Positions 4,378 through 25,749 of a DNA stretch of 64,000 nucleotides are shown here, one piece after another. This DNA is from Parapedobacter defluvii (lineage in GTDB: Bacteria > Bacteroidota > Bacteroidia > Sphingobacteriales > Sphingobacteriaceae), in NCBI RefSeq assembly GCF_014642075.1, contig NZ_BMIK01000002.1, forward strand, positions 124,001 through 188,000, read 5' to 3'. Below the pieces are notes generated by a model that saw only the letters and a list, made by a program, of their open reading frames with translations, was not told where the DNA came from and ran no database searches. The position numbers were made by a program, and so were the translations under genes. Positions within the stretch are counted from its first letter, which is position 1, and every line of letters begins with the position of its first letter.

Positions 4378-5742
4378 ATGGAAAAAGCAATCGCAAGTAA
4401 AAGGCCTAAACGCGAATGGATTTATGTCAAGAAACCAGCGGGTCAGCTTTACCGTTACCGGCAGTGGGTGGGCTATGCGTTGCTCCTTTTCCTCATCGCT
4501 GCACCCCTGGTACGTATCAACGGCGAACCGATGTTGCTCTTCAACATCGTAGACCGCAAGTTTGTAATCCTCGGAAGTGTATTTTGGCCGCAGGATTTGC
4601 ATATCTTCGTATTCGGGATGCTAATTGCCATGGTATGCGTGGTCTTGTTTACCGTGGTTTATGGACGTATCTGGTGCGGATGGACCTGTCCCCAGACTAT
4701 TTTTATGGAATTGGTGTTCCGGAGGATCGAATACTGGATTGAAGGTGATTGGCAGCAGCAGAAGCGATTGCAACAAGCCAAAAGAAATACGGAATGGTAT
4801 CTCAGAAAGGGCGGTAAACACCTGATTTTCTTTCTTATTTCGTTTGGGATATCGAATGTTTTTCTTGCGTACATCATCGGAGCAGAACAGTTATGGCAGA
4901 TTATGACCGATCCCATAGGACAGCACATAGGCGGGTTGATTTCGCTGGTTCTGTTCACATTGGTATTTTACGCGGTGTTTGCATTTGTGCGTGAAATTGT
5001 ATGTACGACGATCTGTCCGTATGGCCGTCTGCAGGGCGTGATGCTCGACGATAAGAGTATGACCGTAGCCTACGATTATAAACGAGGAGAACCCCGGGGC
5101 CACCGGAAAAAAGGTGGAGACCAGCAGTTGGGCGATTGCGTAGACTGTGGGCTATGCGTGCATGTATGTCCCACCGGAATCGATATCCGCGACGGGTTGC
5201 AGATGGAATGCGTCAATTGTACGGCGTGTATCGACGCCTGCGATGCGGTGATGGAAAAACTGAATAAGCCCAAACGGTTGATCGGTTTCTTTACCGTGGG
5301 ACAGATTGAGGGGGATGTGGAGGCTAAATCCGGAAATACACGGGCAATCGCATACAGTGTTGTGCTGATTGTATTGCTCGCAGTTTTTGGATGGCTTTTG
5401 TTCAGCCGGAGTCAGGTCGACGGTACCTTATTGCGGGCAAAAGGGAGCTCCTACCAGTTGCGTGAAGATGGAACGGTGAGCAATCTGTACAGCTTGGAAC
5501 TCATCAATAAAACACAGCAGGATATGCCGTTTGAACTGGTCTCGGAAAATGCAGGTTTCACGGTCCAATTGGTGAATCATATTGCTGAGTTAAAGCAAGG
5601 AGGTGTAGCGCAGCTCAGTTTCTTTTTGGTGAGTCGTCAAAGCGATATCAAATCGTATAAAACGAATGTAAAAGTGCAGGTAATGGTAGATGGTAACGTG
5701 GTCGAAACCATGAAAACCACATTTGTAGCACCGCCTTTATAA
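4378..5742 (+). CDS. ccoG: cbb3 oxidase maturation ferredoxin-like protein CcoG (FixG)
   Basis: Inner-membrane iron-sulfur protein needed for cbb3 assembly; in other bacteria CcoG reduces Cu(II) to Cu(I) during copper delivery. Residues about 30-220 hold several membrane helices with the motifs CGWTCPQTIF and CPYGRLQG. Then comes a 2[4Fe-4S] ferredoxin domain: CVDCGLCVHVCPTG and CVNCTACIDACDA. A further helix (about 320-340) leads to a C-terminal immunoglobulin-like periplasmic domain. At 454 residues it has the usual family length. Its stop codon is followed directly by a 19-unit heptad repeat array that separates it from ccoH. Confidence 0.95.
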   Translation: MEKAIASKRPKREWIYVKKPAGQLYRYRQWVGYALLLFLIAAPLVRINGEPMLLFNIVDRKFVILGSVFWPQDLHIFVFGMLIAMVCVVLFTVVYGRIWCGWTCPQTIFMELVFRRIEYWIEGDWQQQKRLQQAKRNTEWYLRKGGKHLIFFLISFGISNVFLAYIIGAEQLWQIMTDPIGQHIGGLISLVLFTLVFYAVFAFVREIVCTTICPYGRLQGVMLDDKSMTVAYDYKRGEPRGHRKKGGDQQLGDCVDCGLCVHVCPTGIDIRDGLQMECVNCTACIDACDAVMEKLNKPKRLIGFFTVGQIEGDVEAKSGNTRAIAYSVVLIVLLAVFGWLLFSRSQVDGTLLRAKGSSYQLREDGTVSNLYSLELINKTQQDMPFELVSENAGFTVQLVNHIAELKQGGVAQLSFFLVSRQSDIKSYKTNVKVQVMVDGNVVETMKTTFVAPPL

Positions 5743-5743
5743 A

Positions 5744-5876
5744 TTGACAGTTGACAGTTGATAATTGACAGTTGACAGTTGATAATTGACAGTTCATTAT
5801 CCATTATCCATTATCAACTATCCATTATCCATTATCCATTATCCATTATCCATTATCCATTATCCATTATCCATTA
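5744..5876. repeat. 19-unit heptamer tandem array between ccoG and ccoH
   Basis: These 133 bp divide exactly into 19 heptads without a slip. Units 1-7 are TTGACAG or TTGATAA; unit 8 is TTCATTA; units 9-19 are TCCATTA except unit 11 (TCAACTA). The reverse complement of TCCATTA is TAATGGA, one base from a rotation of TTGATAA (TAATTGA). The array therefore changes strand part-way and can fold back on itself; for example TTGATAAT at 5779-5786 pairs with ATTATCAA at 5810-5817. It begins one base after the ccoG stop and ends 5 bp before the ccoH start. No spacer units are present. Confidence 0.95.
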
Positions 5877-11552: not shown

Positions 11553-12728
11553 TTATTCTGCGGAAGCTGAAGGAACATTCAGCGGTTTGATTTCCATGCC
11601 GTCTTCGAGTTTGTCGAGTCCTGAAAGGACAATGCGATCGCCCGGGTTAACACCATTCTTCACGATATATTGCTTTCCGCTTTTCCCTATTACCTCGATT
11701 GCCCGCTGCTTTACCCGATTGGCGGAATCGAGTGTATACACGAAAATCTTATCCTGCAATTCGGTGGTAGCCACTTGGGGAACCGTGAGCACCCCACGTT
11801 GGTGTTCTTCCATTTTGAGCGTGCCTGTATTGCCGGAACGGAGTACGTAATCTGCATTGGGAAACGTTGCCCGTAGACTGATCGCACCGGTGGTTCGATT
11901 CACCTGACCATTGATGGCATCCACCACACCCTTTTCCGGATAGACCGTGCCATCGGCCATGACCAGTGAAACGTTGGGAATGAGTTGGGTCGTATCGGCA
12001 GGATCGGTTGAGGAGGAATCCCGTTTACCGTATTTTTTCCGGAAATAAAGGAAATCCGATTCACTCATGGCAAAATAGACGTATACCTCACTGATGTCTG
12101 AAAGTTCGGTCAACGGGTCGCTGCTGCTTACCAAGTTTCCAACACGTTTGGGAATCCGCCCGATAAAACCGCTCACGGGCGCTTTGATTGTGGTAAATCC
12201 GAGATTAATACGGGCGCTTGCCACAGCTGCAGAGGCCTGTGCGAGTGATGCTTTGGCCACATCGTAATCAGACATTGCCGTCCGGAGGCGGACATCCGAA
12301 ATCACATCGTTCTCTACCAAGGGTTTCAACCGATCCACTTCCAGCTTGGCATTCTCCAATTTTGCCTTTTCTACATTTTCATTGGCAATTGCGTTGTTTA
12401 ACTCTTCCTGATAGGGCTGCGGGTTGATCTTGAAAAGCCGTTGCCCTTCTTTCACAAATGCACCTTCATCTACATAAATCTCTTCCAAAATCCCCTCAAC
12501 CTGTGGACGTATTTCCACATTGACCTTACCTTCTATCGTTCCCAGATAGTCTTTTACGGTAGTTGCCGTGGCAGTATCTATGGGCTGCACGGGTAGAGCG
12601 ATCGCATTATTTTCGGTATCGCTGGTCTTGGAAGATCCTGTGGAACAGCTGAAAATTACAAATAAGGATAATGCTGATAAAGCAATGATTATGAGTGTTT
12701 TGATGTTTGTTTTGACGGAAATGTTCAT
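11553..12728 (-). CDS. RND efflux periplasmic adaptor, AcrA/MexA-like lipoprotein
   Basis: 391 residues. The signal peptide ends in VIFSC, a lipobox (Cys about 28), so the protein is probably lipid-anchored to the inner membrane. The order is then a biotinyl-lipoyl half (VRPQVEGILEEIYVDEGAFV), a coiled-coil hairpin (about residues 95-165), the second lipoyl half (TIKAPVSGFIGR), a beta-barrel and a membrane-proximal domain. It links the pump to the outer-membrane channel. It is the first gene of the operon, with 91 bp to the RND gene. The 142 bp upstream separate it from the divergent amidohydrolase gene; I found no strong TAnnTTTG box there. Confidence 0.93.
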   Translation of the reverse strand: MNISVKTNIKTLIIIALSALSLFVIFSCSTGSSKTSDTENNAIALPVQPIDTATATTVKDYLGTIEGKVNVEIRPQVEGILEEIYVDEGAFVKEGQRLFKINPQPYQEELNNAIANENVEKAKLENAKLEVDRLKPLVENDVISDVRLRTAMSDYDVAKASLAQASAAVASARINLGFTTIKAPVSGFIGRIPKRVGNLVSSSDPLTELSDISEVYVYFAMSESDFLYFRKKYGKRDSSSTDPADTTQLIPNVSLVMADGTVYPEKGVVDAINGQVNRTTGAISLRATFPNADYVLRSGNTGTLKMEEHQRGVLTVPQVATTELQDKIFVYTLDSANRVKQRAIEVIGKSGKQYIVKNGVNPGDRIVLSGLDKLEDGMEIKPLNVPSASAE

Positions 12729-12870
12729 GTTGTTTACTATTTATTGTTTTAGTACTTCTGTGTGATCTGTCTAATTACGTAGGGTTCGACGGTTTTCATG
12801 CCATCAATTGTTGAATAAGGGTCAGATAGTGTGCCAAACATTTCCTAACCTATCGTGTTATTGATTCCAA

Positions 12871-13674
12871 ATGGATTTGGTTTACTCATTACAAAGGGAA
12901 CAAGTTCCTATCATTGCAACCGCAGTCCATCAAGGACATCGGTTGGCTGTGCCTCTGCTGGATTACATGCATCTGCAGGAACACGAGCGTTTTCGTGAAG
13001 AAGATCCTTATACGGGCTACATGGTAGAAAATCTGCCGGTTAGCCGTGTTATTGTAGATACATCCCGCTTTCAGACGGATCTTAATCGCAGGCGGGAACA
13101 GGCGATCTACCGCAGGCCGGAAGATGCCTGGGGGCTGACGGTTTGGAAGCCGGTTTTACCTGAATTGATGGTCGATCGGTTGCTAGAAGGATACGATCGG
13201 TTTTATGTGGATATAGATCAATTGCTGCAATGGACCCTCGCCTTGTTCGGAAAATTTGTGGTGCTTGATATCCATAGCTATAACCACCGGCGCGTACATC
13301 CCAACGAAGCGGCGAGTGTGGGGGAAAATCCGGAGATCAACATCGGGACCGGCCACAACCACGAAAAGTGGAAATCCCTGGGGCATTGCCTAACCAGTTT
13401 TATGGGACATTGCCGGATTAAAGGCCGGTTTTTGGACGTCCGGGAAAACATCAAATTCAAAGGAGGTGGTTTTTCGGAGTGGATCAACCGGAATTACGGG
13501 GAGTATGGCTGTGTCTTTTCGCTTGAATTTAAGAAAACCTTTATGGACGAGTGGACCGGTTGGGTCGATATAGCCTACCTGAACCAAATTCGATCCATGC
13601 TGGCGGGGTGTATCCCGTTTCTGTTGCACATGCTTGATACACCGATTAAATCTTCTTTTTTGCATGGACATTGA
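12871..13674 (+). CDS. N-formylglutamate amidohydrolase-like protein
   Basis: 267-residue cytoplasmic protein of the HutG-type N-formylglutamate amidohydrolase family. Family features seen are an N-terminal TAVHQGHRL, the segment SRVIVDTSRFQTDLNR, and the core VLDIHSYNHRR, whose Asp/His cluster probably binds zinc. The classical enzyme deformylates N-formyl-L-glutamate in histidine breakdown, but no hut gene is nearby. Instead it overlaps a DUF1704 metallopeptidase gene by 11 bp, with an ATP-grasp ligase after that, so an amide-bond hydrolase acting on a ligase product is more likely. That last step is inference. Confidence 0.85.
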   Translation: MDLVYSLQREQVPIIATAVHQGHRLAVPLLDYMHLQEHERFREEDPYTGYMVENLPVSRVIVDTSRFQTDLNRRREQAIYRRPEDAWGLTVWKPVLPELMVDRLLEGYDRFYVDIDQLLQWTLALFGKFVVLDIHSYNHRRVHPNEAASVGENPEINIGTGHNHEKWKSLGHCLTSFMGHCRIKGRFLDVRENIKFKGGGFSEWINRNYGEYGCVFSLEFKKTFMDEWTGWVDIAYLNQIRSMLAGCIPFLLHMLDTPIKSSFLHGH

Positions 13675-15511
13675 GGGTAAGAAATACATCCAACGCATTC
13701 TTGACAAACTGAAAAAAGGCAGACCCTTGTTTACCAGATTGCCTTGCGGGGGTGAACTCCGCATGGATCGGCCGCTTCCATACCTTTTGGTCTACCGTGT
13801 TCCGCCGGACGGGGAGGATGCATTTACGTCGACACTTGGGAAAACAGAATCAGCTTATCTCGTTGCTCCGGATACAGCCGAGTGCCCCATAAATCCGATT
13901 ATCCATGCCATAGCCGGTGCAATGGCTGATAAATTCGGGGGATTTATGTTATTGGAAGTGTGGTTGTCAGACCGGGTAGACTCATCGGCTTTCAATATCC
14001 ATATCAGCCAAAAAAGTGCATTGCCTATTGCGGAGAAATTGCAGCTTGAGTTGCAGCGGATTCATCTTACCCAGATGATCGGTGACCACACGGTGCTGGA
14101 AAAGGACAAGCAGATGCCGTCGCCGCCTTACTACACCGCCTTATTCAGTGCGGAGGAGGCACGGAAGAATGAAATTATTCTGATCGGACTGGAAATCAGG
14201 CCGGTATACATTAACCAACAGACGGGCTCACCGTATCCGCTTTTTCTTAGGGAACTGCGGGAGTATTTCGGGAAGGCATTGCGCAAAAGTTTTTTCGAGT
14301 TTGTGCGGATGAAAACTTCGTATAGCGCCGCGCATTTCCAAATGCTGGGTACCACGGAGCTGCACGAATCCGTATGGGAAATCGATGAAAAGTTGGCTGA
14401 GTACAGCAATCAATTTGATTTCCTGCTGTTGGTAACTCCCATCAATGCACAGGAAGCTTGGCAGAGTTTCTCCGGGAACAAAAACCGGAAAAATCCGGTA
14501 TTTCACTACCGCCCTATGCCGATAGATCCAGAACTTATTAAAAGAAAGCTCTATAACCTGCCCATAGAGGATATTTCGGATCCGACCATTGCTTACCTTT
14601 TCCGTGATAAGCGCAAGGAGGTAGACCGGATGCTTAACATGTTGGGTGAGCGGGAAAAGCCTGACTTCCTATATAGCAGCCAGCAGATTTTCGGTAATGT
14701 GGAGGAAAGTTTACTGGAAATTGCCCGTGCTATCCTGGTAGCCTCCGAGCCACAGCAGGCCCCCAAAGAAAGTGAGATGCTGGATGCCCACACCTTTGCA
14801 GAGTTGGCAAAAACAGAATTAGAATACCTGAAACAACAATACGATATGGTGTCTACGGCCGTCCGTGTACGTGACGATGTGGAAGGGGTTATGGTTTCCC
14901 GCGGAACGCTGAACATCAGTAGCCGTTACCGCATATCACGGGAGCGTGCGTTCTCGCTGTTGCAACACGAGGTAGGTACCCATGTTGCTACTTATTATAA
15001 CGGTATGGCCCAGCCCTTCAAGCTTTTTTACGTGGGGGTACCGGGCTACGAACAATTGCAGGAAGGACTTGCTGTACTCAGTGAATACATGACGGGAGGG
15101 CTAACCAACCAACGGATGCGTATATTGGCAGCGCGGGTAGTGGCGGTCCACCACATGCTGGCCGGTAATCCATTTACAGATACGTTTGACCTTCTGGTAG
15201 ACAAATACAATTTTAAGCCCGAGACCGCTTTTTACATTACCATGCGGGTATATAGAGGCGGGGGGCTCACGAAAGATGCTGTATACCTGAAAGGGTTGCT
15301 GAACGTTATTGAATATGTAAAAGAGGGAAACGATATTTCACAATTGCTGATTGGAAAGATAAGACAGGATTATCTTCCCATCATTCAGGAACTGTTGCAT
15401 AGGCGACTGTTGAAGCCTTCACCGCTGCATCCCAAATACCTGGAAAAGCCCTACGTCGCGAAGATCGAAGAGATAAAAAAGGGAGGTAGCGTATTTAAAA
15501 TGATTGGGTAA
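13664..15511 (+). CDS. DUF1704 'QEGLA' family zinc metallopeptidase-like protein
   Basis: 615-residue protein of the family named 'flavohaemoglobin expression-modulating QEGLA motif protein'. Residues 435-440 read HEVGTH, and QEGLA follows at 466-470. This matches the HExGTH...E metal site known from the eukaryotic relatives MATCAP/KIAA0895L, which are tubulin tyrosine carboxypeptidases; the bacterial substrate is not established. There is no signal peptide, so it is cytoplasmic. ATG 13664 (MDIEGKKYIQRIL) is preferred to the in-frame TTG at 13634, which lies deep in the preceding gene. The 11-bp overlap with the amidohydrolase implies coupling. The 146 bp after the stop contain an 11-unit heptad array. 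Confidence 0.9.
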   Translation: MDIEGKKYIQRILDKLKKGRPLFTRLPCGGELRMDRPLPYLLVYRVPPDGEDAFTSTLGKTESAYLVAPDTAECPINPIIHAIAGAMADKFGGFMLLEVWLSDRVDSSAFNIHISQKSALPIAEKLQLELQRIHLTQMIGDHTVLEKDKQMPSPPYYTALFSAEEARKNEIILIGLEIRPVYINQQTGSPYPLFLRELREYFGKALRKSFFEFVRMKTSYSAAHFQMLGTTELHESVWEIDEKLAEYSNQFDFLLLVTPINAQEAWQSFSGNKNRKNPVFHYRPMPIDPELIKRKLYNLPIEDISDPTIAYLFRDKRKEVDRMLNMLGEREKPDFLYSSQQIFGNVEESLLEIARAILVASEPQQAPKESEMLDAHTFAELAKTELEYLKQQYDMVSTAVRVRDDVEGVMVSRGTLNISSRYRISRERAFSLLQHEVGTHVATYYNGMAQPFKLFYVGVPGYEQLQEGLAVLSEYMTGGLTNQRMRILAARVVAVHHMLAGNPFTDTFDLLVDKYNFKPETAFYITMRVYRGGGLTKDAVYLKGLLNVIEYVKEGNDISQLLIGKIRQDYLPIIQELLHRRLLKPSPLHPKYLEKPYVAKIEEIKKGGSVFKMIG

Positions 15512-15523
15512 TGGTGGGGATGG

Positions 15524-15600
15524 GTGACCGGTGATCAGTGACCGGTGATCAGTGACCGGTGATCAGTGACCGGTGATCAGTGACCGGTGGTCAGTGGTCG
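15524..15600. repeat. 11-unit heptamer tandem array (GTGACCG/GTGATCA)
   Basis: 77 bp that divide into exactly 11 heptads. GTGACCG alternates with GTGATCA for nine units, then GTGGTCA and GTGGTCG. It begins 12 bp after the DUF1704 stop codon and lies between two genes of the same operon. The units also occur in the 25666-25749 array. Each unit pair contains the small palindromes ACCGGT and TGATCA. Confidence 0.95.
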
Positions 15601-15657
15601 GAAGGATGCGGTAGTTGACAAACAAAAACGCAAAAACACAAACAAAAAATAACAAAG

Positions 15658-16656
15658 ATGACTATCACATTCATCGTTAATCAAGTACGGAAAGAACTGG
15701 CGGGTTACACGACCACAGCGTTGGCGCTGGAAGCCCACCGACGGGGGCATACAGTTTATTATGCAGGGGTTGGAGACCTGGTTTACCTGCCAGATGGGCG
15801 AGTAGGGGCACATAGCCGGAAAGTACCTGACCGTGAATTCAGATCGCTGCATACCTTTCTGGAGGCTGTGGTAACTGAAGAAAAGCGGCTGTTGAGTTCT
15901 AAAAATTGGGATGTTATGTGGTTGCGTAACGATCCGGCAGCAGATATGGAAAAAAGGCCATGGGCTCAGGATGCAGGGGTTCTGTTTGGCCAATTAGTCC
16001 AGCAGCAAGGGGTTTTGGTACTTAATAATCCAAATGGGTTGGTAAAAGCCTCCAATAAGATGTACTTGCAATATTTTCCCGAATCAGTACGGCCCCAGAC
16101 CCTCATCACGCGCGATATGGCAGACGTAGAAGCCTTTTATCGCGATCAACACCACCGCATTATTCTTAAACCGCTGAAAGGCTCGGGGGGGAAAAATGTA
16201 TTTCTCATCGACAAAAAGGAAGACAAAAACCGCAAGCAGATCGTCGAAGCAATTTGCAGAGACGGTTTTGCCATTGCACAGGAATACCTGCCCGCTGCAA
16301 AAAAGGGAGATATCCGTTTGTTTTTGATGGATGGGGAACTCCTGCAGCGGGACGGAAAGGTGGCGGCAATCAAGCGTGTGCAGCAGTCGGGCGAAATCCG
16401 GAGCAATATCCATCAGGGTGCCAAGGCAAAAAAGGCGGTCATGAATAAGGAGATGGAGCACATTGTGGAAGCGGTGGGACCGCTGCTCCGCGAGGATGGG
16501 ATATTTTTAGCGGGATTGGATATCGTAGGCGACAAACTGATGGAAATTAATGTGTTCAGCCCCGGAGGCTTAATCCATGCCTGTGAATTCCAGCGCACGG
16601 ATTTTATGGATGAGGTTATTTCAGCCGTCGAAAAGAAGGTAGCAAATCTCGCGTAA
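15658..16656 (+). CDS. GshB-like ATP-grasp ligase
   Basis: 332 residues resembling prokaryotic glutathione synthetase (GshB/RimK-like ATP-grasp). Visible parts are an N-terminal pre-ATP-grasp domain, a start of the grasp at NPNGLVKASNKMYLQYFPE, ATP-binding HHRIILKPLKGSGGKNVFLI, and the Mg-site segment VGDKLMEINVFSPGGLIHA near residues 290-308. ATP-grasp ligases join a carboxylate to an amine through an acyl phosphate. True glutathione synthetase would need a GshA partner, which is not present here, and its neighbours are hydrolases of amide or peptide bonds. A different amino-acid or peptide ligase activity is therefore plausible (inference). Confidence 0.85.
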   Translation: MTITFIVNQVRKELAGYTTTALALEAHRRGHTVYYAGVGDLVYLPDGRVGAHSRKVPDREFRSLHTFLEAVVTEEKRLLSSKNWDVMWLRNDPAADMEKRPWAQDAGVLFGQLVQQQGVLVLNNPNGLVKASNKMYLQYFPESVRPQTLITRDMADVEAFYRDQHHRIILKPLKGSGGKNVFLIDKKEDKNRKQIVEAICRDGFAIAQEYLPAAKKGDIRLFLMDGELLQRDGKVAAIKRVQQSGEIRSNIHQGAKAKKAVMNKEMEHIVEAVGPLLREDGIFLAGLDIVGDKLMEINVFSPGGLIHACEFQRTDFMDEVISAVEKKVANLA

Positions 16657-16700
16657 AATGAGTACGTTTGGTCATACATTCGTTGGGCGTGGCGGATATC

Positions 16701-18167
16701 ATGCAGATACTTCATCAGATAGGAGCGTTCATTTACCAGTGGTATTGGATACCGCTTTTATTGGTCTATGTCGCCATTATCGTCACCATCCTGATTGAAA
16801 ACCGCAATCCTACGAAAACAATTGCCTGGATTATGGTCATTGTTTTCGTACCGGTGGTGGGAATCGTTTTTTACTATTTTTTTGGTCAGAAATTTAAGAG
16901 AGTCAAGGTTTTTCGGATTCAAAACCGGGAGAAACATACCCGTTTATTAAGCGTGTGGAACAAGCTTAATCCCATTATGGATCACAACCTTGAAGTGTTA
17001 AGGCAATCCATCGGGCCGCTCAGCAGGGTTTTTACCTTCCTGAAAAACCAACGGATTGCACCGCCCTCGCTGCATAACCACGTTGAACTTTTGATAAATG
17101 GCGAACAGAAATTTCCCGAACTGCTCCGCGCAATCCGTGAGGCGGAGCATCATATCCATTTAGAATATTATATTTTCGATCCCGATGATATCGGTCTTGC
17201 GTTGATTTCGTTGTTGAAGGAAAAAGCATCCGCAGGTGTAACTGTCCGCATCATAGTCGATGCATTCGGGTCACCTAAACTCAGGCGCCGGCGGAAGCGG
17301 TTTGAAAAAGCCGGAATCCAGTTTATCCCGTTTATGCCGGTCACCTTTACGTCGTTGGCAAACGGTAATTATCGGAACCATCGTAAAATAGCCATTATTG
17401 ATGGACATACGGCATTTGTAGGGGGCATCAACATCAGTGATCGGTATGTAAACAGCGGTAAATATCCCCTGTATTGGCGGGATACGGCGGTAAAAATCCA
17501 GGGAGATGCGGTAAACGTCCTTCAGGTCCATTTTTGGATGAATTGGCACCTGGCGGAGGGATCTCCTTTTAACCTCCGCGATGGGTATTTCCACACGGTA
17601 CCTGTAATTCCAGCCGGGCATTCGGCAGTGAGTTTTGCTTTTAGCGATCCCGGCTCCAATGCGCCGTTCAACATGGAAGCTATGTTAATTGGCATTGCCG
17701 AGGCAGCACATACGGTGCGGATCTGTACGCCATATTTTATCCCCAGCGACGAGTTAAGTACTACACTTCAATTGGCTGCTGCTTCGGGAGTACAGGTTGA
17801 ATTGATGTTGCCCGCCCGGTCCGATTCTTTTCTCGTGCAGCATGCCTCGTTTTCTTTTTTGAAGCCCTTATTGGAACGTGGCGTGTCCGTGTATTTGTAT
17901 GAAAAGGGTTTCCTGCATGCGAAAACCATCTGCATCGATGGCCGGTTGGCTTATATCGGTACGGTCAACTTAGACATCCGTAGCTTTTATATCAATTTTG
18001 AAGTCAGCGCGGTCATCAGTGATCGTGATCTTTGCGCCCAATTGGACACCCAATTTGAGAAGGATAAGTCGGATAGTACCCTGATGACCCGTGCGATCTG
18101 GATGCGGCGTCCAAGATGGAAGCGCGGAATGGACTCCGTATGCAGGCTGCTGACGCCCCTGCTCTAA
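16701..18167 (+). CDS. Cardiolipin synthase, phospholipase D type
   Basis: 488-residue membrane enzyme that condenses two phosphatidylglycerols (or a related pair) into cardiolipin. Two N-terminal helices (about residues 8-28 and 38-58, with the typical NPTKTIAWI between) precede two PLD domains, each with an HKD-type motif: HRKIAIID at 227 and HAKTICID at 406. ATG 16701 is chosen; an earlier in-frame TTG at 16668 would add 11 residues without family character. It lies 44 bp after the ATP-grasp gene and may be its last operon partner, although a functional link is not obvious. Confidence 0.92.
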   Translation: MQILHQIGAFIYQWYWIPLLLVYVAIIVTILIENRNPTKTIAWIMVIVFVPVVGIVFYYFFGQKFKRVKVFRIQNREKHTRLLSVWNKLNPIMDHNLEVLRQSIGPLSRVFTFLKNQRIAPPSLHNHVELLINGEQKFPELLRAIREAEHHIHLEYYIFDPDDIGLALISLLKEKASAGVTVRIIVDAFGSPKLRRRRKRFEKAGIQFIPFMPVTFTSLANGNYRNHRKIAIIDGHTAFVGGINISDRYVNSGKYPLYWRDTAVKIQGDAVNVLQVHFWMNWHLAEGSPFNLRDGYFHTVPVIPAGHSAVSFAFSDPGSNAPFNMEAMLIGIAEAAHTVRICTPYFIPSDELSTTLQLAAASGVQVELMLPARSDSFLVQHASFSFLKPLLERGVSVYLYEKGFLHAKTICIDGRLAYIGTVNLDIRSFYINFEVSAVISDRDLCAQLDTQFEKDKSDSTLMTRAIWMRRPRWKRGMDSVCRLLTPLL

Positions 18168-18187
18168 ATGTTAAAATTGACCCGAAT

Positions 18188-18219
18188 TTTGGCATAAAGC
18201 ATCAAAAAGAATATCTTAG
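18188..18219 (+). promoter_or_regulatory. Predicted Bacteroidota-type promoter of the 18248 gene
   Basis: TTTG at 18188-18191 is followed after 20 bp by TATCTTAG at 18212-18219, seven of eight bases of the -7 consensus TAnnTTTG. This predicts a start of transcription near 18226 and a leader of about 22 nt. It would separate this gene from the upstream cardiolipin synthase unit. Confidence 0.5.
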
Positions 18220-18247
18220 CCACTTATTGTATATAAGATTGATTTGA

Positions 18248-20977
18248 ATGAACCGTATCGTTAAACTAGTCTGTTGTTCGATTTTTATCTGTTGCCAATC
18301 GATCCCTTCCTTAGCCCAGCAGGATAGCATTTCCGTCAATACTGTTGTCGAGAAAACACAGAAACTGCTAGAGGCTTATCCCATTGAAAAGGTGCACCTG
18401 CATTTTGATAAGCCCTACTATGCGGTAGGAGATACGCTATGGTTCAAAACCTACCTCACCAGTAACATGTACAATTATGACCTTAGCAAAGTGGTATATG
18501 TTGAAGTACTGAACGGTAAAGATTCGCTGATGCAAACAATGCGGATTCCACTGACCAATCATGTGGGTAAAGGCTACCTGGTATTCGATCAGGAATGGTA
18601 TACCCAAGGCAATTACCGGTTTCGGGCTTACACGAAATGGATGATGAATTTTGACCCGGCTTATTTTTTCAACAAGATTGTTCCGGTGGGCGATGTGCTG
18701 AATAATGCGCTTCATTACGACGTTACATTCAATGACCTGGGTAAAGGTAAAAATGCCCGCACACAAGCCGTCATTCAATTCAAAGACCGTGAAGGAAAGC
18801 CATTGGCCAACCGGAAGCTGAATTGGTCTGCACAGGTAGGCTGGAATCCCATTGACAATGGTAAAGGACAAACAGATGCCGTAGGTAATGTAGTCATCCA
18901 TATCAACGGGAAGGATAGGGAGCAGCTTAGAAAGGGAAACCTGTATGTATCTCTTGAATCGGGCAGCAGTGCACCACCGATGCTCGGTACGTTGTCACTC
19001 CGGTCAGCACTTTGGGATGCGGACGTTCAATTTTTTCCTGAGGGTGGCGATCTGATTGCAGGGCTGTCCAAAAAAGTAGCCTTCAAGGCGATTGGAAGCG
19101 ATGGCCGTGGGCTGGCTATCAAGGGGGCCATAGTAGACCAGAAAGGAGCGGAGGTAGCTGCGTTTTCGGATGCACATAAAGGGATGGGGGTTATCACTTT
19201 TATACCCGAGGCGGGGAATGCATATACTGCCAACGCTACCTTTGAAAATGGTGAAACCCAAAGTTTTCCGCTGCCTCCGGTAGTTGAGCAGGGAATCAGC
19301 GTAACGGTGGTGAAATCCGATACAGCACAGCTGCAATTGGCCATTTTGGCCAACGACCGTTTTTTTTCGGCAAATAAAGGCAAGGCATTTTACCTGATCG
19401 CACAAACCAATGGAATTCTTTGTTATGCTGCGCAGGCTGCTTTACGCAACGAAACGGTAGTAGTAAATCTGCCCAAAGATCGTTTCCCCACGGGCATCGC
19501 TCAACTGACTTTATTTACTTCGGAGGGGAAACCGGTGAGCGAACGCCTGGTCTTTGTCGAGAATATCAAACCCTTATCAATAGCGCTGAGTACCGATCAA
19601 CAGGAATATGCCGCCAAGCAGTTGGTTAAGTTAGGCATAAAAGTCGCCAACAACGACACAACGACGGTTGGCAGCTATTCAGTAGCGGTGGTAGACGAGT
19701 CCAAAGTTCCTTACGACGAAAACAAGGAAACAACTATATTGAGTAACCTGTTGCTTACGTCAGACCTGAAGGGCTACGTGGAGGAACCAAATTACTACTT
19801 TAATCAGCCAGATGACCAAAAAAGAGAAGCGCTTGATATCCTGTTGCTTACCCAGGGATATCGTCGGTTCTCATATCCGGATGTGCTGGCAGATCGGTAC
19901 CCCGACGTGCATTTTTTCCCTGAGCAGGGCATCGAAATATCCGGGATCCTGAGGTTGAACAATGGGAAGCCAGTGGTGAACGGCGGGCTATTGCTGTCGA
20001 TTCCCGACCGGAGTTTCCGTAAAGATACCTATACAGATGAAAACGGACACTTTGTATTTAAAGATCTGGTATTTACCGATTCGTCGCGTGTAACCATCAA
20101 TGCCCGCGGCAATGACAACTACCGCGATATGGTCATCAATGTAGATCCAACGCAATATCCGGGAATCGATACCACGGCCTACCGGGCAGACGATGTGCTG
20201 AATATCGACGCTACGCTTGCTCCTTATCTGACCAATAGCCGAAATGAATACCGGACATCCATATTGCTTGAAGAAGTGGAGGTGACAGCTTCCTCCCGGC
20301 CTAGTTTTTCACACAAAGACTATCCGGCAATTTCCGGATTGGGTATGGCCGATCACCAGATCAATGCCGACCGGTTAAAGGGATGTAATAACCTCATCAT
20401 GTGTTTGCAGACCGCACTTACAGGGATTACCTACGATAGCCAAAGCCAGCTCTTCTACATTACCCGCGATTACAATGCAGGGGGGCGTATTCCAGTGCAG
20501 TTTTTTGTGAATGGAATGGCAATGGATGTTCCTTCGCTAAACGGTATCATGCCTTCGGAAGTGGAAGGAATTGAAATTTTTCTACGCGATGAGTTGGGTA
20601 CGGTAAGCCGGATGTATCAAAATAATGGTGTTGTAGCGATTTATACCACTAAAAAGCAGGAAAAAGGACCGCGGATGTCGTTGAGTCAGATTGAGGCGCT
20701 GTTACCGAAAAGCAATATCATTGACCTGACGCCGTTGGGGTATTTGGAAGAGCGGAAGTTTTATACACCCAAATACGATACACCCGAACGCCGTGCGGTG
20801 AACGATATCCGGACCACTGTCTATTGGAACCCCGAGGTACAAACCACCGAAGAGGGTACCGCGCAACTGGATTTCTATAACGCCGACGGTGCGGGCAGTT
20901 ATCGGGTAGTTGTAGAAGGTGTGGATGCCACAGGAAATATCGGTCGGGCCGTGTATCGATATACGGTGAAGCAATGA
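18248..20977 (+). CDS. Macroglobulin-like (MG2) exported protein with TonB-receptor plug-like domain
   Basis: 909 residues with a signal peptide (cleavage near SLAQQ, residue about 24). Residues about 40-150 form an MG2 beta-sandwich (VHLHFDKPYYAVGDTLWFKTYL). More Ig-like domains follow, then a carboxypeptidase-regulatory-like repeat around 560-620 (SGILRLNNGKPVVNGGLLLS), and around 690-790 a segment like a TonB-receptor plug (INADRLKGCNNLIMCLQTALTGI). No transmembrane barrel follows. Such large periplasmic proteins are common in Bacteroidota and their function is unproven; surface assembly or binding is the usual guess. The dinB gene begins 16 bp after its stop. Confidence 0.8.
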   Translation: MNRIVKLVCCSIFICCQSIPSLAQQDSISVNTVVEKTQKLLEAYPIEKVHLHFDKPYYAVGDTLWFKTYLTSNMYNYDLSKVVYVEVLNGKDSLMQTMRIPLTNHVGKGYLVFDQEWYTQGNYRFRAYTKWMMNFDPAYFFNKIVPVGDVLNNALHYDVTFNDLGKGKNARTQAVIQFKDREGKPLANRKLNWSAQVGWNPIDNGKGQTDAVGNVVIHINGKDREQLRKGNLYVSLESGSSAPPMLGTLSLRSALWDADVQFFPEGGDLIAGLSKKVAFKAIGSDGRGLAIKGAIVDQKGAEVAAFSDAHKGMGVITFIPEAGNAYTANATFENGETQSFPLPPVVEQGISVTVVKSDTAQLQLAILANDRFFSANKGKAFYLIAQTNGILCYAAQAALRNETVVVNLPKDRFPTGIAQLTLFTSEGKPVSERLVFVENIKPLSIALSTDQQEYAAKQLVKLGIKVANNDTTTVGSYSVAVVDESKVPYDENKETTILSNLLLTSDLKGYVEEPNYYFNQPDDQKREALDILLLTQGYRRFSYPDVLADRYPDVHFFPEQGIEISGILRLNNGKPVVNGGLLLSIPDRSFRKDTYTDENGHFVFKDLVFTDSSRVTINARGNDNYRDMVINVDPTQYPGIDTTAYRADDVLNIDATLAPYLTNSRNEYRTSILLEEVEVTASSRPSFSHKDYPAISGLGMADHQINADRLKGCNNLIMCLQTALTGITYDSQSQLFYITRDYNAGGRIPVQFFVNGMAMDVPSLNGIMPSEVEGIEIFLRDELGTVSRMYQNNGVVAIYTTKKQEKGPRMSLSQIEALLPKSNIIDLTPLGYLEERKFYTPKYDTPERRAVNDIRTTVYWNPEVQTTEEGTAQLDFYNADGAGSYRVVVEGVDATGNIGRAVYRYTVKQ

Positions 20978-25665: not shown

Positions 25666-25749
25666 GTAACCGGTGACCAGTGGTCGGTGATCGGTATCTG
25701 ACCACAGACCACCGTTCACTCATCACCGGTCACCCATCACCGACCACCA
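25666..25749. repeat. 12-unit inverted heptamer array between convergent genes
   Basis: 84 bp divide into 12 heptads. Units 1-5 are of the sense type (GTAACCG, GTGACCA, GTGGTCG, GTGATCG, GTATCTG). The remaining units are mostly their reverse complements (ACCACAG, ACCACCG, TTCACTC, ATCACCG, GTCACCC, ATCACCG, ACCACCA). The sense units are those of the 15524 array. The array fills the whole gap between two convergent genes and runs into the last codons and stop of the M61 gene. It could act as a hairpin 3' end for both transcripts. Confidence 0.9.

Follow-up and report, generated by a model that had tools for sequence, protein, structure and literature searches.

In a 64,000-nucleotide stretch of the Parapedobacter defluvii genome (contig NZ_BMIK01000002.1, positions 124,001 to 188,000; hereafter the window) three adjacent genes on the + strand encode a trio of enzymes, here called FG, QE and GS, and we judge the chances about evenly balanced that these enzymes build and take apart a small metabolite of amide or peptide type other than glutathione. 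FG (12871–13674, 267 residues) is a zinc amidohydrolase of the N-formylglutamate amidohydrolase (FGase, PF05013) kind; QE (13664–15511, 615 residues from its ATG) is a MATCAP/DUF1704 metallopeptidase (TIGR02421, QEGLA), DUF1704 being, as we take it, the former name of PF08014 MATCAP; and GS (15658–16656, 332 residues) is a GshB-type ATP-grasp ligase with NF009110 (PRK12458) as its nearest model among the NCBIfam profiles. The open reading frames (ORFs) confirm the positions, the shared strand and the 11 bp overlap of FG with QE given in the original prediction, and a Pfam search matched PF05013, PF08014 and PF02955/PF02951 to the three proteins, as its family labels had proposed. The listed QE ORF begins at a TTG at 13634, the ATG start being at 13664, and 146 bp separate QE from GS. 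A ligase set beside two hydrolases suggests that an amide is both made and broken, and if the small-amide reading is right the genes currently labelled glutathione synthase, N-formylglutamate amidohydrolase and ‘flavohemoglobin expression-modulating QEGLA motif protein’ would belong to an unrecognised small-amide or peptide metabolism spread across many bacterial phyla.

Relatives were collected by scanning genome contigs with an alignment of the DUF1704 domain, which gave at least 589 pattern matches, at least 573 of them confirmed; the best 80 loci were used, a set biased towards the window’s own type in which Sphingobacterium and Pontibacter are numerous. GS is present in all 80, on the same strand and within 300 bp of QE in 76 (the others are L062, L070, L072 and L096); it is split into two ORFs in L053, L078 and L084 and cut by the contig end in L059. 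FG is found in 70 of the 80 loci, 66 times on the same strand within 300 bp, and among the ten loci lacking it two start at a contig end (L064, L076) and three carry an AstE-type gene (L085, L087, L089). Loci not assigned to Bacteroidota number 34, and in 17 of them the QE and GS genes share exactly 4 bp. By record title, often that of a metagenome bin, the trio occurs in Bacteroidota, Planctomycetota, Gammaproteobacteria, Acidobacteria, Calditrichaeota, Campylobacterales, Gemmatimonadota, Poribacteria, Verrucomicrobia and others, and rhizobial plasmids also bear it, including pSymB of Sinorhizobium meliloti 1021 (L097). Among the best 80 of the at least 573 relatives, the closest is P. indicus (92% identity). 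Since the same gene set recurs across many phyla, a chance adjacency is excluded, and the neighbourhood survey answers the objection that the trio might be absent outside close relatives: it is conserved far beyond them. Some clusters (L063, L066, L076) hold two QE genes and three GS ORFs. The distance matrices of FG, QE and GS correlate at 0.51 to 0.87 over 66 and 25 loci, a level that 999 permutations never reached, a result we set aside because there was no control gene and shared species history may explain it.

The linkage was also followed in two genome samples, which overlap the 80 loci (L014 is identical to L085, and L011 to L048). QE was found in 16 of 296 Bacteroidota genomes, the window’s own included, and 17 strong PRK12458-type GS copies (at least 389 bits, the next score being 215) fell in 15 genomes, all QE-bearing, every copy within 2.5 kb of QE. 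FG adjoins QE in 13 of the 16, in one of them fused to it; an AstE-type gene takes the place of FG in L014 and L016, and the divergent QE of L002 has no FG or GS in 17 kb (L155). The second sample, 349 Pseudomonadota genomes drawn around G308, itself picked for bearing the trio, contained QE in 39 genomes and 15 strong GS copies (at least 399 bits, next 241) in 13, with 14 copies within 1 kb of QE; the remaining copy belongs to G417, a genome with no QE match, and its start lies 48 bases from the end of a contig. With both samples pooled, 31 of 32 strong PRK12458-type GS copies have a DUF1704 gene within 2.5 kb. Many other proteobacterial QE differ: 27 of 30 fetched loci, chosen as the best by MATCAP score and not a fair sample, lack both FG and trio-type GS over about 4 kb, and 25 of these 27 score low with the trio-type profile. 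Pseudomonadota also hold a second DUF1704 group (L106–L129, L131) with neither FG nor trio-type GS, several of whose loci have a TetR-like gene and a small lipoprotein-like gene upstream.

FG matches the FGase profile PF05013 at 63 bits (cut-off 28.9) and retains the motifs HxGH, EEDP, SRFxxDLNR and DxHSYN. Its predicted model (predicted local distance difference test, pLDDT, 94.9) is closest in the PDB to the N-formylglutamate amidohydrolase 2q7s, with a template modelling (TM) score of 0.74; against the HutG deformylase model TIGR02017 it reaches 23.9 bits, far below the cut-off of 278.75. Where FG is missing, AstE_AspA-type genes stand beside QE and GS in L085, L087/L089, L016 and L154, amounting to about three lineages, L085 and L014 being the same species and L087 and L089 nearly identical. 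The best-known members of the FGase and AstE/AspA families act on small N-acyl amino acids. In a clustering of neighbouring ORFs of at least 70 residues, of which the 45 largest clusters were examined, sigma-54 activators recur across phyla in addition to the AstE-type gene. A gene for BshC, of bacillithiol synthesis, lies beside QE–GS in the FG-less flavobacteria L078 and L090 (called by Pfam for L090 and by homology to L090 for L078).

The C-terminal domain of QE (residues 254–615; 14423–15508) has the MATCAP fold. QE scores 300.7 bits with PF08014 (cut-off 27) and 342.2 bits with TIGR02421, just above the cut-off of 338.65, and in 60 aligned sequences, the window’s included, H435, E436, H440, Q466, E467, G468 and A470 are invariant. 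These residues belong to the zinc-binding HExxxH motif, HEVGTH in QE (residues 435–440; 14966–14983), and to the QEGLA motif (residues 466–470; 15059–15073), which aligns with EEGLA of MATCAP in a profile alignment; the HExxxH and the glutamate of the EGLA motif are kept in 102 of 102 QE ORFs of L001–L099. By analogy with the ligand role described for MATCAP in PMC10499314, E467 is presumed to be the third metal ligand. Superposition of the predicted QE model (mean pLDDT 90.9) on MATCAP 7z6s gave a VIA-align Z of 24.9 and a root-mean-square deviation of 3.0 over 291 residues, as against Z of 10–17 for DUF885-type, M32 and Pz peptidase folds. In profile comparisons the human KIAA0895-like chain was matched with an E of 7.9e-18 by the short and fused trio types, 4.6e-16 by the mixed, 6.5e-11 by the long and 9.9e-5 by the stand-alone proteobacterial type, values that rank relatedness roughly only, as the profiles differ in alignment depth and diversity. 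The kinship of DUF1704 with eukaryotic MATCAP, from which the original prediction set out, is thus borne out by both profile (4.6e-16) and fold.

The first 235 or so residues of QE (residues 1–235; 13664–14368) have no significant Pfam match and form a second domain, FGase-like in fold and devoid of the active-site motifs, which the original prediction had passed over. Its profile matches that of FG (hhalign probability 90.2, E 1.8e-7) as well as the FG part of fused proteins, and in the predicted model residues 27–218 superpose on 2q7s with a Z of 13.9, amidase or M14 folds giving 10–11; for both QE domains we read the weaker fold matches as general resemblance. The motifs separate the two proteins sharply, in counts where many rows are close relatives: EEDP is present in 75 of 75 full FG ORFs and 1 of 96 QE N-domains, D[LV]NR in 67 of 75 and 0 of 96, D[LMI]H[STA]Y in 68 of 75 and 0 of 96, and HxGH in 68 of 75 and 2 of 96. 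Misses in FG are near variants such as DINR, DVHSYN and HDGN, while the N-domain hits come from L008, whose EEDP is possibly a remnant, and from L087 and L089, which are nearly identical. FG and QE form one protein in L006, Vibrio L100, Photobacterium L104, L133 and L135, the fused L104 retaining the FG motifs. Since they are fused in some lineages, FG and QE would appear to act together, and the fusions further suggest that the N-domain is a copy of FG in which the fold was kept and the chemistry probably lost.

GS is related to glutathione synthetases and distinct from them. It matches the prokaryotic glutathione synthetase families PF02955 and PF02951 at 164.5 and 54.7 bits and falls below both glutathione synthase equivalogs, TIGR01380 (203.5 bits; cut-off 299.05) and NF003573 (223.7; 272). 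With NF009110 it scores 390.1 bits, just under the curated cut-off of 408, as do the GS of G002 (396.5) and G308 (399.7), the other trio GS of the two samples scoring 420–488. Ten residues that align with E. coli GshB K125, K160, D208, R210, R225, R233, N235, D273, E281 and N283, which we take to be the catalytic positions, are kept. Comparison of trio GS with 16 canonical GshB found ten alignment positions conserved within each group yet different between them, including F300 and G303 in place of threonine (EINVFSPG as against EINVTSPT). The 68 trio GS separate from canonical GshB with support of 100/100 in a midpoint-rooted tree of 73 rows, for which 27 loci had been thinned beforehand, five of the 16 canonical GshB were included and a long-branch warning applies. 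GS copies of a single cluster (L061, L063, L066, L074) fall in different supported clades common to several organisms, and tandem copies so placed would suit ligations of different specificity.

Neighbouring genes offer a lead towards ion or osmotic balance. The scan took the nearest ORFs of at least 200 residues, up to six per locus, from 30 loci, mostly metagenome bins, which are the 34 outside Bacteroidota less L059, L064, L065 and L076; 129 of 136 ORFs, from 29 loci, were searched with Pfam, L074 having none. The top entries (25 of 161 families), several of which describe the same proteins, are sigma-54 activator domains (6), MscS (5), HTH_8 (5), CorA (4) and AAA_5 (4), followed at three each by AA_permease, OmpA, TrkA_C, the MscS C-terminal domain and Methyltransf_12. 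MscS genes occur in L056, L061, L063, L070 and L079 and CorA genes in L057, L060, L061 and L067, whereas copy number in the same 30 genomes would lead one to expect 0.23 and 0.06 in the flanks. The Poisson tails (5e-6 and 5e-7) are descriptive only, because the families were picked after sight and L061 is counted in both. SLC13/TrkA_C-type genes lie in five Pontibacter loci. In Photobacterium damselae, according to PMC10308900, genes with the annotations GshB and QEGLA, whose locus numbers are neighbours, rise 38.4- and 27.5-fold at low salinity, where other genes rise too, RimK for instance 52-fold. Since GS adjoins an FG–QE fusion in Photobacterium sp. DA100, these genes would by analogy be the same set, and the trio is perhaps tied to ion or osmotic balance. 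Other recurrent neighbours are sigma-54 activator genes in several phyla (L055, L061, L063, L068, L070, L072) and YihY/BrkB-like genes in Sphingobacteriaceae (L017–L019, L022, L024, L027, L028, L044, L047, L048, L077) and rhizobia (L101, L103), with a weak case in L067.

From these genes we infer the kind of substrate, the direction of the reactions, the formation of a complex and the osmotic role. GS would activate a carboxylate with ATP and join it to the amine of an amino acid, as GshB does, and QE, as a MATCAP-type zinc carboxypeptidase, would take off a C-terminal residue, its non-catalytic FGase-like domain perhaps binding substrate or pairing with FG. FG, or its AstE/AspA substitute, would cleave the amide bond of an N-acylated acidic amino acid or of something related to it, and all three enzymes may serve ion or osmotic balance. 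The obvious alternative is true glutathione metabolism, with GS as the glutathione synthetase and QE and FG turning glutathione over. It would account for the retained GshB-type catalytic residues and for the deposited annotation of trio GS as glutathione synthase or synthetase, and among 29 genomes tested 12 have a PF04107 match (one has PF04262). The host genome itself has no match to PF04107 or PF04262 and thus no recognised glutamate-cysteine ligase, although an enzyme outside these families might still supply gamma-glutamylcysteine; none of the 16 QE-bearing Bacteroidota genomes has PF04262, and ten of them lack PF04107. Canonical glutathione synthesis by the trio is on this account unlikely, and since at least six of 13 proteobacterial genomes with trio GS also hold a GshB of canonical score, GS is probably not the cell’s glutathione synthetase. 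Together with GS scores under both glutathione synthase cut-offs, this leaves glutathione metabolism a very improbable explanation. All sinorhizobia carry a second glutathione synthase gene, according to PMC3557214, and the GS of pSymB may be that gene.

A linear biosynthesis, in which GS extends an N-acyl-protected intermediate, FG or AstE deprotects it and QE trims a C-terminal residue to leave a peptide, would put the same enzymes in series instead of a cycle. The deacylase-type folds and families of FG and AstE fit such a series, as do multiple GS of separate clades in one cluster (L061, L063, L066, L074), yet no acyltransferase recurs among the 45 neighbour clusters or the 25 of 161 neighbour families, the nearest being a formyl transferase (two members) and a methyltransferase domain (three), and the ORFs of at least 70 residues showed no shared precursor peptide; we regard it as rather unlikely. 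More doubtful still is a cycle on protein tails, in which GS would add a C-terminal amino acid to a protein and QE remove it, as tubulin tyrosine ligase (TTL) and MATCAP do on tubulin, with FG editing an acylated tag. QE is a MATCAP relative, MATCAP fits the trio-type profiles (7.9e-18, 4.6e-16) better than the stand-alone proteobacterial one (9.9e-5), and MATCAP/TMCP enzymes work on protein tails and also remove glutamates, as described in PMC10499314. The ligase speaks against it: a sequence search with GS returned GshB at 3e-42 and RimK-type ligases at 4e-6, with TTL not among the matches at E≤1 in that one search. In addition, FG and AstE belong, by their known members, to small-molecule families, and the neighbours examined (45 clusters, 25 families) offered no candidate target. 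A protein-tagging, tyrosination-like cycle is thus possible and less supported than a small amide, and because GS is of the GshB kind and FG and AstE are small-molecule deacylase types, we favour as substrate a small amide other than glutathione over the tail of a protein. Of the original prediction, which offered either a counterpart of the tyrosination cycle or a glutathione-like amide made and broken, the turnover of an amide is supported and a tyrosination-type ligase is not supported by the one search with GS; the small amide is favoured, with glutathione itself unlikely in a host without PF04107 or PF04262.

Several observations weigh against a small-amide cycle tied to ion balance. GS changes GshB R241 to lysine and N199 to glutamate, and the set is at times incomplete: neither an FG nor an AstE gene was found in L075, L078, L082, L088 and L090, trio-type QE occurs with no GS nearby in L152, L153 and L154, and in Vibrio L100 the FG part of the fusion has lost EEDP, HxGH and DxHSYN and no GS is annotated in 19 kb. 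The excess of ion genes was spotted first and tested later on 30 loci that are mostly metagenome bins; MscS and CorA are, moreover, neighbours of one another. CorA, SLC12-like, MscS and Kef genes were not found by single-seed BLAST in the Bacteroidota loci, the window’s own group, and the salinity data come from a single transcriptome, that of a different species, with changes in many further genes.

The gap between QE and GS contains a tandem repeat of a 14 bp unit, GTGACCGGTGATCA, in 5.2 copies (15524–15596, without strand), unmentioned in the original prediction, which is not thought to be part of the enzyme system; the next gene downstream of the trio encodes a cardiolipin synthase. The window holds 7 or 14 bp arrays at 5742–5876, 15524–15596 and 25710–25742, with the units TTGACAG, CATTATC, GTGACCGGTGATCA and CACCGGTCACCCAT, the first two arrays being intergenic; outside the third array, the 21-base pattern used to test for it matches the genome twice, each time with two mismatches. 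No RNA element reached the Rfam gathering score in 12600–18300, and sigma-70-like sites are no commoner than in shuffled sequence. A rhizobial EcfG-type promoter was dropped as well, GGAAC-N-GTT lying at −34 in L102 and at −333 in L097 and L099 and not being found in the stretch inspected of L098, L101 and L103, the rest of the six rhizobial loci. A defence system was rejected (the three proteins have no PADLOC match at E≤0.001), as was a phage origin: two scans of viral contigs gave no relative, and a PHROGs search of the three proteins returned one weak match, RimK-type, for GS. The lone ‘phage’ record with a DUF1704 gene, OQ572403.1 (57548–70441, L105; an UNVERIFIED ‘Pseudomonas phage Y1’), has a stand-alone DUF1704 among chromosomal-looking genes with L107-like neighbours and is probably host DNA. 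No description of the trio was found in those parts of the open-licence literature that were searched. Iyer and others (2009) reportedly treat ATP-grasp gene neighbourhoods in their work on amidoligases, perhaps including this one, and we therefore make no claim to priority.

Set against known systems, the trio combines familiar parts in a different arrangement. GS resembles GshB (PF02955; PDB 1gsa) in domain order and aligned catalytic residues, but forms a separate clade with group-specific residues in a host lacking a recognised supply of gamma-glutamylcysteine. FG is like FGase (PF05013; 2q7s) in profile and fold, yet misses the HutG cut-off and has different operon partners, while AstE/AspA (PF24827), which replaces FG beside QE and GS, is another family, absent from the window and on the opposite strand in L085, although the L089 protein also has a DLNR motif. 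QE shares with MATCAP/TMCP (KIAA0895L, KIAA0895; PF08014) the fold, both motifs (HExxxH and EGLA) and, close to where the domain begins, a P-x-N...F...P-x-F-x-Y stretch; unlike them it is bacterial, carries a degenerate FGase-like N-domain or an FG fusion and lies beside a ligase gene. A small-amide role for the trio would give the origin of MATCAP a concrete bacterial setting. That the eukaryotic MATCAP tubulin carboxypeptidases descend from the hydrolase of a widespread bacterial cycle of amino-acid ligation and removal, coupled to ion or osmotic control, seems to us improbable though not outlandish; if true, animal MATCAP would have been taken from an ancient bacterial peptide cycle and put to a new use. 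With the tubulin tyrosination cycle itself (TTL with MATCAP or vasohibin) the trio has in common an ATP-grasp ligase beside a MATCAP-type carboxypeptidase, and differs from it in having a ligase of the GshB type and a second hydrolase.

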